Below are positions 6,461 to 10,690 of a stretch of DNA of 64,000 nt, one piece after another (positions within the stretch are counted from its first letter, which is position 1; every line of letters starts with the position of its first letter). A model generated the notes under the pieces. That model worked only from the letters and a program-made list of their open reading frames with translations. It searched no databases and was not told the DNA's origin. This stretch comes from Rhodopirellula europaea 6C (GTDB lineage Bacteria > Planctomycetota > Planctomycetia > Pirellulales > Pirellulaceae). Made by a program: the position numbers and the translations under genes. The stretch spans positions 1-64,000 of the forward strand of contig NZ_ANMO01000116.1 in assembly GCF_000338295.1 (NCBI RefSeq). Direction: 5' to 3'.

Positions 6461-6611
6461 GGGCGGGAGTTCGGAAGGCGGGAGGGAGGAGCGTCCAGGA
6501 AGGCGTCGCGTCAACGCGATGACGGTTGCCAACGTGGAGTAAAAGCAAAAGGTGGGGACTTTCTACGCTCGATCCAGTGGAGCTTCATTATGCACAGTCA
6601 CGCGAACTTAA

Positions 6612-8648
6612 TCAATCGAACCAACCATGAAGTTGCCAATCGGTCGGGTGATTGAGGTCGCGAAAAATCCACCAACGTGCCCCATCGTCCAGTTCCACTC
6701 GGAAGTAATCGCGGCGAACCATCGGGCCTTGCCACCATCGGGTTTCAATCCGTTCGGGGCCCCAGTGCTGATGCACGTTCCACACTTTTCCGCGAAAGCG
6801 AAATCTTGGGGGGAACTGATTTTCACCGAAGGGGTCTCCGCCATGTCCCAGCGGCGTGAGTCGCTGAGGGGATGAATGCAGTTGAAGCGGCCGACGTCCG
6901 GCATCATGGGGCGTTGGCACTCCGTTGCGAGTTCCGCCGCCATGTCGCCCATGAGATTCGTCATGCGATTCCGCGGCCGAGGAAGTTTTGGATTTGGGGC
7001 GACGCCGCGGCCGGTTGGTGGCGAGTTTGCGACCTCGCGATTGAGTCAGCGGGAAATCCGTGACGGTGTCTTCGGGCAACGGGTCACGATTGATGCGGAC
7101 GCCTCGCACAGATTCTTCTCCCAATCGACCGCTCAACGAATCGATCAATCGAGCGATGTCAGTTTGACGCGTCCAATCGGTTTGCGTGTCGCTTTCAAAG
7201 CCGGGGCCGAAGATCGACGGTTGAGTGCTGGCGAGGACCGCGTCTTGCAGCACGTCCAATCGAAGATGCGAAACCTTGGACTGACAGGCATGCGATTCAA
7301 ATGCACCAATCATCAGATTGCTGAGGTGGTTCAGGTCCAATGTCGGTGAGAACAGTCCGGATTCGAGCGTCACCGATGGGGACTCGGTGAAGTCGAGTTG
7401 GCATCGCAAACGCAATACGCCTCTTCCCAGTGGACGCAAAGATGCGGTGGCGGATTCGATCAAACGAATGATCCGGTCGCGAATCAAATCCACCGCGTCG
7501 GTTGGATATTCCAGTTCCAAAGATGCTGTGTGTTCGGTGGGAATGTCGATCGCGAGAATGGGTTCGTCGACTTCTCCCAGTGCTTGAGCGATGCGGTTGC
7601 ACAAACCGTGACCGATGCGAGTGGCCAATCCGTTGCGAGGCAATTGCAAGAGCGAACCGATGGTTTCGATTCCCAACCGTTGCAAGGTTTCCACATCCGT
7701 TGGGTTTAAACGCAAAGCGGATGGCGGCAACGTTTGCAGTGCGTCGCGGGTGCGATCGGCGGGGGCCAAGAAAAAGTCGAAGTGGTTCTTGGCGGGATCT
7801 TTGGTTCGGTTTTGAGAGGGTGCGTGGGTGGCCAACGCCCAAGCCGCACCGACGGTGCTGGCGATTGCCAAGCGAGCTTTCAGGTGACGGCGTTTGAGAA
7901 TGGTGGCCGCTGCGGCGAGCAAGCCAGGTTCGTCATCGAACAAATGGGTGACGCCGTCGATCTCCGCGACAAGTGCTTCGGGATCATGTCGAAAGCGACC
8001 GGCCCATTTGAAACGGTCGAGTGTTTCCAGTGCGATCTGCGGGCACAGATGGCTTTGCAGTTCGGTCGCCAACGAATGCAACGCTCGCCGATCAGCGACA
8101 CGATCGTGTTCGTCGATGATCGCGGTGGGGATTGGCGGGACGCTTTGATTGGCGACGTTTCGGCTGGAGTTGTGCTGGTCGGCCAGTGTGGTTGTGATGT
8201 CGACGGCTTGCGCGATCGGCATGCCCAATCGGACGCCCATGGCCGCGGCACGGTGGCAGCTCGCCGCCACGATTCTTCCGCGACGAGGATCGGCATGCCA
8301 AAGGATCAGCGGCGCGGTGGCTTGAGGACTGGACGGGTGAGTGGGGCGTTCAGGCTCGGCCCTCCCCTCGCTTCGCTCGACCCTCCCAGAGGAAGGTTGA
8401 AGTGCGGAGGGAGAAATGCTTCGCTCGGCGCTTCGGGAGGAAGCGTGAAGTGCGGAAGGAGAGCTTCGCCCAACCTTTTGGGAGGGAGGGTGAAGTGGCG
8501 AAGTCTTGGTAGTGCTATCCCGCGGCTCGGCGGTTGTTTTGTCGTTGGTCGCTGGGGCGTTGAGATTCGCGTTGGCGCTGAGGAGGCTCTCGGCGCGTCG
8601 ACGTTGGACGGGCCAATTGGGCAGCCAAATGCACAGCAGCCTTTTCAT
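6612..8648 (-). CDS. imuB: ImuB-like Y-family DNA polymerase homologue
   Basis: Translesion-synthesis accessory protein related to Y-family polymerases; in the ImuA-ImuB-DnaE2 mutasome ImuB bridges the beta clamp and DnaE2. The start MKRLLCIWLPNWPVQRRR at 8648 is characteristic of ImuB. Also seen are LIDDEHDRVADRRAL-like palm sequence, the helix-hairpin-helix stretch PTDVETLQRLGIETIGSLLQLPR, and a C-terminal ImuB tail ending FRVELDDGARWWIFRDLN. Residues of about 50-110 are a non-family insertion built from translated 48-bp repeats (LHPPSQKV, LHASSRSAERS, LQPSSGRVERSEGRAE). It lies directly downstream of imuA, whose 3' end overlaps it by 134 bases. No dnaE2 is found in the window. Confidence 0.88.
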   Translation of the reverse strand: MKRLLCIWLPNWPVQRRRAESLLSANANLNAPATNDKTTAEPRDSTTKTSPLHPPSQKVGRSSPSALHASSRSAERSISPSALQPSSGRVERSEGRAEPERPTHPSSPQATAPLILWHADPRRGRIVAASCHRAAAMGVRLGMPIAQAVDITTTLADQHNSSRNVANQSVPPIPTAIIDEHDRVADRRALHSLATELQSHLCPQIALETLDRFKWAGRFRHDPEALVAEIDGVTHLFDDEPGLLAAAATILKRRHLKARLAIASTVGAAWALATHAPSQNRTKDPAKNHFDFFLAPADRTRDALQTLPPSALRLNPTDVETLQRLGIETIGSLLQLPRNGLATRIGHGLCNRIAQALGEVDEPILAIDIPTEHTASLELEYPTDAVDLIRDRIIRLIESATASLRPLGRGVLRLRCQLDFTESPSVTLESGLFSPTLDLNHLSNLMIGAFESHACQSKVSHLRLDVLQDAVLASTQPSIFGPGFESDTQTDWTRQTDIARLIDSLSGRLGEESVRGVRINRDPLPEDTVTDFPLTQSRGRKLATNRPRRRPKSKTSSAAESHDESHGRHGGGTRNGVPTPHDAGRRPLQLHSSPQRLTPLGHGGDPFGENQFPPRFRFRGKVWNVHQHWGPERIETRWWQGPMVRRDYFRVELDDGARWWIFRDLNHPTDWQLHGWFD
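8370..8510. repeat. 48-bp tandem repeat family, three copies inside imuB
   Basis: Units begin with GCTTCGCTCG at 8370 and 8418 and with a variant at 8463, giving periods of 48 and 45 bases, both multiples of three. Each unit carries a short complementary arm (CCTCCCAGAGGAAGG in the first) and ends GTGAAGTGCGG or similar. Read on the minus strand they encode the proline/serine/arginine-rich segment LHPPSQKV / LHASSRSAERS / LQPSSGRVERS of ImuB. The same family occurs in imuA at 9553-9792. Confidence 0.8.
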
Positions 8649-9939
8649 GAGTGTTTGCCGTGGATGTGTCAGCGGTTGCGGTGTCACCAACCGGGTTCGA
8701 GTGGGAAACAGGGTTCGAGTGAGCAGCGAGGAAGGGACGCGAATCCAAATCATGTAGCATCGCGTCGGGGGTGATCGCCAGGAAAGCTTGGCGGGCCGCG
8801 TTGGTTTTGGCTCGGGGCATCGTCACATGAGCCACCCGGAGATCACGATAGCGACGAAGATTGGTGGGTGGCAAAGCGGAACGGGACCGAGGAAGCGGAA
8901 CAATTTGTTCGGGCTGAGCCGGCACCGACCGGACGTGCCAGCGAACCGAAGCAAACGAAGGCTGCCGCCCCGCCGACGCGGTTCGCACGAGCAAGCCTGG
9001 TGTTCGACCGGTTTCAGCGGCGAGTTGCAATCGGCGCGCGTCGCGATCGTTCAGATTCCAAGGCAACATTGACCACACCGCGGCGACGGATCCGCAACGG
9101 AGGGCTTGGTCGAGCGTCCACACCGCGTCGCGGCGGTTGGTGACTCGACACCAAACGATTCGTTCGGCGGGGATGCCGCAAGCGATCGCGGCGGGAGCAT
9201 AGAAATGACCGCCGGGGTCGACGACGATGATGGGACCGTCGTGATGAGCGTGTGCCGATGAATGAGGTTGGTTGGCCGTTCCCAAAATCTGGGCCGCGGC
9301 GAGCAAGGAAAGTGTGCCCGCGCCGCCGCCTTCGGTTTCCGCGATCCATTCACTGATCGTGCCGCGTCTCATTCCGCCGCCGGGCAACCAAGAATCCAGA
9401 GCCGAAGATCCGGTCGAAAAACGCGGGGTGGAATCGGTCGCGACGAGCGGATCGGAGATCGCTTCGGTTTGGCGACGCAGTTTTTGCAGCAACGCTTCGC
9501 GAGTGGCGGGGGCGTGTTCGGCTTTGCTCTCGCTTTGCTCGGCCCTCCCCTCGCTTCGCTCGACCCTCCCAGAGGGAGGGTGAAGGTGAGTTTGGTCACC
9601 GCTTCGCTCGACCTTCTCGGAAGGAGGGTGAAGTGGGGAGAGGGAAACGCTTCGCTCGGCTCTCCCAGAGGCAGGCGGAAGGTGAGTTGGGTCGTTACGC
9701 CGCTCGACCTTCTCGGAATGAGGTGGAAGGAGAGTTTGGTTGTTGCTTTGCTTGGCTGGTCGGGAGGGGAGCTGGGGGGCTGCGTGACGACGCTTGGTGA
9801 TTGAGGTTACAGTGGAAGAAGCCACCGATTCCTCCCAAAAAGCAAAGGTTTGCTGTTCGGGAGCCTGTTCCAACACGCTGGTGGACGCGGTCAAACGGCG
9901 TGGAACGGAGATGTTTTCGGTGGAAATGCTGTTTGGCAT
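8515..9939 (-). CDS. imuA: ImuA-like RecA-fold protein of the mutasome cassette
   Basis: ImuA is a RecA-like protein co-expressed with ImuB in SOS mutagenesis. The 474-residue product has the ImuA core FSTGSSALDSWLPGGGMRRG, then EWIAETEGGGAGTLSLLAA (a degenerate Walker A region), IIVVDPGGHFYAPAA (strand and Walker-B-like segment) and VRWHVRSVPAQPEQIVP. Residues of about 65-145 are four to five copies of a 16-residue repeat (HPPSEKVERSGDQTHL type) encoded by 48-bp DNA repeats. The low-complexity C-terminal tail overlaps the first 134 bases of imuB. The ATG at 9939 lies 38 bases from an 18-bp palindrome resembling a LexA operator. The repeat block makes it longer than usual for the family. Confidence 0.83.
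   Translation of the reverse strand: MPNSISTENISVPRRLTASTSVLEQAPEQQTFAFWEESVASSTVTSITKRRHAAPQLPSRPAKQSNNQTLLPPHSEKVERRNDPTHLPPASGRAERSVSLSPLHPPSEKVERSGDQTHLHPPSGRVERSEGRAEQSESKAEHAPATREALLQKLRRQTEAISDPLVATDSTPRFSTGSSALDSWLPGGGMRRGTISEWIAETEGGGAGTLSLLAAAQILGTANQPHSSAHAHHDGPIIVVDPGGHFYAPAAIACGIPAERIVWCRVTNRRDAVWTLDQALRCGSVAAVWSMLPWNLNDRDARRLQLAAETGRTPGLLVRTASAGRQPSFASVRWHVRSVPAQPEQIVPLPRSRSALPPTNLRRYRDLRVAHVTMPRAKTNAARQAFLAITPDAMLHDLDSRPFLAAHSNPVSHSNPVGDTATADTSTANTHEKAAVHLAAQLARPTSTRREPPQRQRESQRPSDQRQNNRRAAG
9553..9792. repeat. 48-bp tandem repeat family, five copies inside imuA
   Basis: Units start at 9553, 9601, 9649, 9697 and 9745, an exact 48-base period; the last is the most diverged. The first unit contains a perfect hairpin, ACCCTCCC (9563-9570), loop AGA, GGGAGGGT (9574-9581). 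On the minus strand each unit is read as 16 residues (HPPSGRVERSEGRAEQ, HPPSEKVERSGDQTHL, PPASGRAERSVSLSPL, PPHSEKVERRNDPTHL). No unrelated spacers separate the units, so this is not a CRISPR array. Confidence 0.88.
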
Positions 9940-9977
9940 CGTCTTGCTGCCTGCCTCGTTTGGTCAGTCCATTGATC

Positions 9978-9995
9978 CTAGCAAACATTTGCTAG
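9978..9995. promoter_or_regulatory. Palindromic operator, LexA-box-like, upstream of imuAB
   Basis: CTAGCAAACATTTGCTAG is a perfect 8+2+8 inverted repeat. It overlaps a second palindrome, TTTGCTAGCAAA (9988-9999). It lies between the divergent starts of imuA (9939) and lapA (10038), 38 bases before the imuA ATG. imuAB cassettes are LexA-controlled in other phyla, so an SOS operator is the natural reading, but I cannot confirm the LexA consensus of this organism. Confidence 0.55.
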
Positions 9996-10037
9996 CAAAT
10001 CCCTTTTTTCGCGAGAAATCACCCTCGCCGATTTCAC

Positions 10038-10397
10038 ATGCTCCAGAAAATCCGCTGGTTTTTGTCGTTGGTGGCCGTCTTGGTCGTCATCATCGTGGCG
10101 TTTCAAAACCAAGACGCGGTGCCGCTAACGATTTTGTTTTTCAGTGGTGAATACCCGCTGACGTTGCTGCTGCTGGGCTGTTCCGGCGTCAGCTTTGTGC
10201 TTGGGTGTTTGATGACCGCGTGGAGAATCCGCAGTCGCCACAAGGCTCAAATTGCCCGAGAATCCGAAGCGAAAAAGGAATCCGAGGCCAAAAGAGCGGA
10301 AGCCACTGCGAAAGAGACGTCTTCCACGAAGAAGAAAAGTGTCGTGGGCAACGAGTCAGCCGAAGCTTCCATCGGCTTGGATCAGGAAGCGACCTGA
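10038..10397 (+). CDS. LapA domain (DUF1049) small membrane protein
   Basis: A 119-residue inner-membrane protein. Two hydrophobic helices (residues of about 8-21 and 42-60) flank FQNQDAVPLTILFFSGEYPL, which is the LapA/DUF1049 signature region. A charged Ala/Glu/Lys-rich cytoplasmic tail follows (RESEAKKESEAKRAEATAKE) and could form a coiled coil. LapA in enterobacteria works with LapB in controlling lipopolysaccharide synthesis; no lapB is adjacent here, so that role is not demonstrated. Its 3' end overlaps the convergent gene by 16 bases. Confidence 0.75.
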   Translation: MLQKIRWFLSLVAVLVVIIVAFQNQDAVPLTILFFSGEYPLTLLLLGCSGVSFVLGCLMTAWRIRSRHKAQIARESEAKKESEAKRAEATAKETSSTKKKSVVGNESAEASIGLDQEAT

Positions 10398-10690
10398 ACG
10401 TTGTCGTCGGCAGCGTCAAAGTCGCTGGCCTTTTGTTGCGACGCGGCTCGGCGGCGAGCCACCAAATCGTGGCGACGCAAAACGGCTTGAGCGAGATCGC
10501 CGATTCGCTGGATGGGACGTTCGGTCGATGCCCGCTGCGATTCGAGCTGTTCCCGGCCTTCACGGATCAATTCGGCGAGAGCCAACAGTGAGTTGTCCGA
10601 TCCATTGGACTTCGGTGCCGCGGTTGCGGAGACCGATGCGATCACGGGGGAAACCGGTGCGATGGCGTCGAAGAGAGAAAGCTGAGTCAT
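10382..10690 (-). CDS. Hypothetical protein
   Basis: I do not recognise a family. The 102-residue product starts MTQLSLFDAIAPV at the ATG at 10690; the frame is open to 10741. The middle has an amphipathic segment, LLALAELIREGREQLESQR, followed by a basic stretch (RRHDLVARRRAAS). It contains no Cys and no membrane segment. Two GTGAC-GTCAC dyads lie just upstream at 10726-10788 and could regulate it. It converges with lapA with a 16-base overlap. Confidence 0.55.
   Translation of the reverse strand: MTQLSLFDAIAPVSPVIASVSATAAPKSNGSDNSLLALAELIREGREQLESQRASTERPIQRIGDLAQAVLRRHDLVARRRAASQQKASDFDAADDNVQVAS

Follow-up and report, generated by a model that had tools for sequence, protein, structure and literature searches.

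Two genes of Rhodopirellula europaea 6C, identified here as imuA and imuB, contain in-frame tandem repeats, which raises the question of whether the repeat is a DNA element that entered both genes or an ordinary segment of the proteins that they encode. The genes lie in the window (the whole 64,000-nucleotide stretch analysed, contig NZ_ANMO01000116.1, positions 1 to 64,000). The features are as follows, with units scored as matches to a 33-nt core read on the coding (minus) strand.

8515..9939, minus strand: imuA, ORF of 474 aa with a match to NCBIfam ImuA_translesion and orthologues in relatives
6612..8648, minus strand: imuB, likely start MKRLLCIW (alignment of 18 relatives), model similar to Y-family polymerases
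9538..9585, minus strand: full 48-nt element, last imuA unit (residues 119-134, LHPPSGRVERSEGRAE; core 33/33)
9586..9633, minus strand: imuA partial unit -1 (core 29/33)
9634..9681, minus strand: imuA partial unit -2 (core 28/33)
9682..9729, minus strand: imuA partial unit -3 (core 23/33)
9730..9777, minus strand: imuA eroded unit -4, doubtful (core 19/33; spacer resembling neighbouring spacers)
8355..8402, minus strand: full 48-nt element, last imuB unit (residues 83-98; core 31/33)
8403..8450, minus strand: imuB partial unit -1 (core 26/33)
8451..8495, minus strand: imuB partial unit -2 (45 nt; core 26/33)

The pair is recognized by an ImuA family match and a predicted Y-family fold. Against NCBIfam ImuA_translesion, the imuA protein scores 93.6 bits (E-value: 1.3e-26), short of the curated cut-off (150), and orthologues were found in 34 of the 40 relatives searched. 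By sequence, imuB has weak matches only (IMS, E-value: 0.0046). Its model is similar to Y-family polymerases (best Foldseek E-value: 1.1e-15), with a TM-score by query length of only 0.29. Neither protein matches Pfam at the default cut-off, and the imuB frame remains open upstream of its likely start, back to 8753. Background on the mutasome is found in sections of PMC6511836.

All units in both genes are in frame, and the natural unit on the coding strand starts CTTCAC. The imuA array consists of four clear units and one eroded unit, and the imuB array of three. A sequence-only reading had placed tandem in-frame arrays in these two partner genes, and they are indeed there; its 48-nt period holds throughout imuA, while the imuB spacings are 48 and 45 and its fifth imuA unit is borderline. 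The 19/33 core of that unit, despite the neighbour-like spacer, is close to the chance level, which is a best match of 17 or 18/33 per locus in ten dnaE-type loci (3.8 kb, both strands; part of each gene, DnaE1 and DnaE2 not separated), the dnaE genes being themselves at this level. Each array has a single full element, always as the final unit, and is preceded by partial units. What is repeated is a 33-nt part of the element with a species-variable spacer, mostly of 15 nt, and not, as had been supposed, a 48-bp hairpin. The perfect 8-bp stem noticed earlier in the first imuA unit (9553) is real (fold z -3.04 against shuffles); six further units were folded, and none is set apart from its shuffles (z +0.45 to -1.82). 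In the model proposed below, a good hairpin is lost from internal units and kept by the terminal one. Rfam gives no match up to an E-value of 1 in positions 6500-10500 of the window.

Both arrays belong to a dispersed family with the palindromic consensus CTTCACCCTCCC-NNN-GGGAGGGTCGAGCGAAGCGAGGGGAGGGCCGAG. Near-consensus copies (no more than three mismatches to the core pattern) number 14 in G000, the genome of the window (7.19 Mb in 273 contigs), 38 in G004, 85 in G002, 42 in G005 and 25 in G009. The patterns give 204 copies in these five genomes; merging of eight whose surroundings were identical (four in G002, four in G005) left 196 distinct copies for examination. At least one copy is present in 11 of the 13 genus genomes, with none for a backward control. 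An exact-match scan of a species-genome collection, which may omit genomes very close to that of the window, found 41 stretches, all in Planctomycetota (Rhodopirellula, Aporhodopirellula, Stieleria and MAGs); none has a spanning coding-like frame under a codon model from the window's genome. Among the 196 copies, 170 have no gene assignment. Intergenic copies often form the left half of a composite palindrome of 120-140 bp, in which inverted ends and inner hairpins can be seen by eye. The 48-nt solo form is free of stops in five of six frames. Stem covariation was left unused as proof, a two-sided change occurring at one pair only (C-G to T-A, 25/196, one subfamily). No description of this family was found in the published literature searched, outside of which most subscription journals lie.

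The distribution bears on one alternative, an ordinary low-complexity segment conserved in ImuA and ImuB with no tie to a DNA element. As this explanation would have it, all relatives have variable linkers rich in Pro, Ser and Glu, yet near-identical DNA occurs at many other sites, mostly extragenic, and the more distant ImuA and ImuB proteins are without the element. The explanation is scarcely credible on these grounds. The sequence-only reading had named as its own refutation a repeat confined to these genes and equally present in distant ImuA and ImuB proteins, and neither part of this holds. Its likening of the repeat to the palindromic elements of Rickettsia in coding sequence also holds, as the dispersed palindrome is found within genes too.

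Two further observations concern copy number and arrangement. In G000, seven of the 36 element matches are no more than 75 bp from the end of a contig (C124, C54, C204, C21, C69, C36 and C35; loci L018, L022, L030, L027, L028, L029 and L031, respectively), so the assembly appears to break at the repeat and the copy number of G000 is probably too low. In G002, larger-unit tandem arrays occur at 2287087-2287822 (L344, four copies) and 5981814-5982786 (L334, five copies), with spacings of 233 and 234 bp; both have the CCTGGCAGG stem variant.

Copies within genes mostly take a solo form with a CCGAG tail, for which the frame used (LHPP) gives the hydrophilic predicted peptide LHPPSGRVERSEGRAE. CCGAG-tailed copies lie in genes in 22 of 35 cases and the remaining copies in 4 of 161, counts in which orthologues were entered separately and copies are not independent. 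Frames were judged with a codon model for which 28 ORFs of the window served as training set and which separates weakly (median 0.18 vs -0.15). By the stricter test, a coding-like frame spans 14 of the 196 elements. By the looser test, 47 element-frame combinations are positive, and the LHPP frame makes up 26 of these compared with 96 of 382 open combinations; low-scoring or short-flank combinations among the 47 were set aside by judgement. Ten genes were accepted by reading and, where possible, Pfam, the model behind the assignments being weak: imuA, imuB and genes for PSD1/DUF1553, kinase-WD40, HsdR, epimerase-family, copper-ATPase-like, 440-aa and 485-aa proteins and an ABC protein with two ATPase domains. 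The LHPP frame is used in nine of the ten (binomial 2e-5 after a factor of five); in the ABC protein gene, the element is on the opposite strand and in another frame (LGPPLASLDPPKGRVK). A search with the ImuA protein, which is biased towards the LHPP frame, added two cases in that frame, a glycosyltransferase and a 278-aa protein. Among the twelve proteins, ImuA and ImuB aside, three are without a Pfam family (the 278-, 440- and 485-aa proteins). The epimerase-family protein has two elements, 132 bp apart. At L212 of G002 (ORF residues about 340-450), the two elements of an epimerase-family protein share one open frame with a second repeat, PSPPATGERARVRG. The family thus has in-frame copies within several unrelated genes, as do RPE-like protein-coding palindromes.

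Within 66 bp of a full element, extra head-to-tail copies are found upstream (one hit in 196 shuffled sequences), and the sole exception to the partial-then-full order is a pair of full elements 50 bp apart. In-gene spacings are 48 (imuA and imuB), 45 (once, imuB), 42 (278-aa protein and copper ATPase) and 39 (440-aa protein, from translation). Copies that do not pass as coding are spaced by 40, 44, 50, 59 and 62 as well as by multiples of three (48, 51 and 60; 45 from translation). These spacings and the 170 copies not assigned to genes contradict the earlier idea that the element tolerates only in-frame spread. The full, least changed unit stands last in the imuA, imuB and 278-aa protein arrays, which would agree with repeated insertion, in which new elements landed beside old ones and the perfect last unit is the newest. 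Against this, the internal units are without the 3' part of the element, their spacers resemble one another as duplication of flank plus core predicts, and imuA units -1 and -2 of G002 match at 44/48 with the spacer included. Repeated insertion is highly improbable in view of these features. Tandem duplication is instead suggested by the related spacers, the restriction of partial units to the upstream side and the differing unit numbers. In the gene for the 440-aa protein, G002 has three units, and G000 and G005 have one each; the G009 copy is 21 nt shorter, G004 has nothing recognizable and G011 none. The element contains GGGAGGG twice, with a distance of 21 bp between the two at L359 of G009, the same distance as the 21-nt loss in the 440-aa protein gene of G009, so the element can apparently shrink in frame by way of its own direct repeat.

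Across four species, the terminal imuA units match at 47-48/48 in each of the six pairs (the 48 nt of G000 recur unchanged in G004 and G005, and at 47/48 in G002), with downstream flanks at 82-95%. Terminal imuB units are 44-46/48 identical, with flanks at 86-95%. Internal units diverge much more: for the internal imuA units of G000, the best ungapped match to a G004 unit is 37/48, although the flanks are 94.7% identical. The contrast of terminal with internal units is partly built in, as copies were picked by a near-consensus pattern, and orthologous non-gene copies can equal the terminal conservation (44-48/48 in one group, five genomes). In G004, imuA unit -1 matches imuB unit -2 at 43/48 (next-best unit 38), and this one unit pair suggests exchange between the genes. 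Differences of internal units from the consensus number 21, 36 and 38 at codon positions 1, 2 and 3; as positions 2 and 3 differ about equally, constraint at the protein level looks weak. The element is absent from the imuA, imuB and 440-aa protein sites of the outgroup G011, and G009 has eroded remains alone in imuA and nothing in imuB. No clean pair of empty and filled sites with exact borders was obtained among the genomes compared.

The PSD1 site is pristine in G004 and G002 and eroded in G000 and G009. Refreshing of old copies was considered for this gene but not adopted, since the species group in part the same way by their flanks. Some copies shared by G000 and G005 (L004/L284 and L003/L259) have flanks that are 96-99% identical, compared with 86% for the imuA flanks, so that a recent exchange between these species is likely.

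Both arrays fall in stretches modelled as disordered. The ImuA array covers residues 55-134, where pLDDT is mostly <50, ahead of the first modelled helix at 147. The ImuB array (residues 52-98) falls in a predicted loop with pLDDT <50 over 39-109, between helix 1 and strand 2 of the Y-family-like fold. In ImuB, the interval from WLP[NDH]WP[IV]QR to the LILWHADPRR-type motif is 80-120 residues in the four array species, 28 in G009 and 12 to 75 in element-free relatives (11 of the 18 sequences gave a value). For the ImuA linker, array species have 107-139 residues and properly measured relatives 83-132, a G003 row that matched the wrong place being excluded. Since element-free relatives also have long linkers, the element is not their sole source. 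The linker is preceded in 13 of 13 genus sequences by QQTF[ASE]FW, which we take to resemble a clamp-binding motif.

These data allow a reading in which a long, charged, disordered tether on ImuA and ImuB helps the mutasome, with the element as raw material and unit number tuned by selection. The low-confidence stretches that hold both arrays, the QQTF[ASE]FW motif before the ImuA linker and the sharing of the feature by two partner genes are in keeping with it. Its appeal is reduced by the element-free linkers, which reach 132 residues in ImuA of G012 (107 in the array-bearing G005) and 75 (G003) and 54 (G012) in ImuB, by the presence of the same predicted peptide in unrelated proteins, and by G009, which retains only the eroded imuA remains. 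We consider it unlikely. A bolder version, in which the arrays of a mobile palindrome are kept, resized and exchanged between the two genes because linker length or charge affects the meeting of ImuA and ImuB at the clamp, is quite improbable; if true, the inducible mutation machinery would itself evolve via a repeat.

The proposed model, which we regard as probable, is that a palindrome of Planctomycetota entered genes, where it is retained mostly in one frame, and was then tandemly duplicated and exchanged in imuA and imuB. The family, which occurs in Pirellulaceae and other Planctomycetota, is dispersed like REP, RPE and MITE elements. Insertions at other places or in other frames would mostly have been lost through selection. 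In imuA and imuB, slippage or unequal recombination would have duplicated the first 33 nt together with neighbouring nucleotides, and units may have been swapped at least once between the two genes, judging by one unit pair. Whole-codon changes alone would survive in these arrays. The element is presumed to be mobile and its in-gene copies to be translated, and any linker function is putative. A phylum and a repeat family are added to the few palindromic elements that write new peptides into proteins. Within one genus, the same gene is found with arrays of varied length, a single copy, an eroded remnant or no element, so that how a protein repeat arises and expands can be tested directly.

The repeat family is new, and its kind is already known from intragenic REP- and RPE-like repeats, earlier reported in DNA-repair genes. 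It has the REP-type feature of a short palindrome with many dispersed, mostly extragenic copies. Y1_Tnp genes are present in all 13 genus genomes, but association with a RAYT (Y1_Tnp) was not found in the complete genomes G002 and G004, where every copy is more than 5 kb from a Y1 transposase (smallest distances 5.3 and 17.2 kb). G002 has three tandem Y1_Tnp matches with equal scores, about 1 kb apart, at 6437942-6440280. No GTAG/CGTC end tag was seen by eye in the consensus, whose ends are provisional. According to sections of PMC3733652, CGTC families have no dedicated transposase and the RAYT link is not general for REP families. The composite 120-140-bp form, in which the inverted ends and inner hairpins are visible by eye, may be comparable to the MITE-like small mobile sequences described in part of PMC2229807, from which it differs in having no established parent transposase or target duplication. 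The Rickettsia palindromic elements described there occur in 19 reading frames, and the present family is like these RPEs in lying in frame in unrelated protein genes and also between genes. Compared by description and not by sequence, it differs in that its in-gene form is 48 nt and the RPEs are 105-146 bp.

A further close likeness is to the intragenic REPs of the GTAG/CGTC families, which the sections of PMC3733652 concerned describe as mostly intergenic, short dispersed palindromes sometimes within ORFs. Clusters of them encode 43-82 aa in Thauera and R. conorii, and many target genes belong to DNA synthesis or repair, DnaE2 included; the text does not mention Rhodopirellula. The present family is similarly a dispersed palindrome, mostly outside genes, with DNA-repair targets, in this case two mutasome genes. 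Unlike those REPs as described there, its partial units grow in tandem and in frame within two partner genes, with species-specific histories, and this is its most unusual feature.
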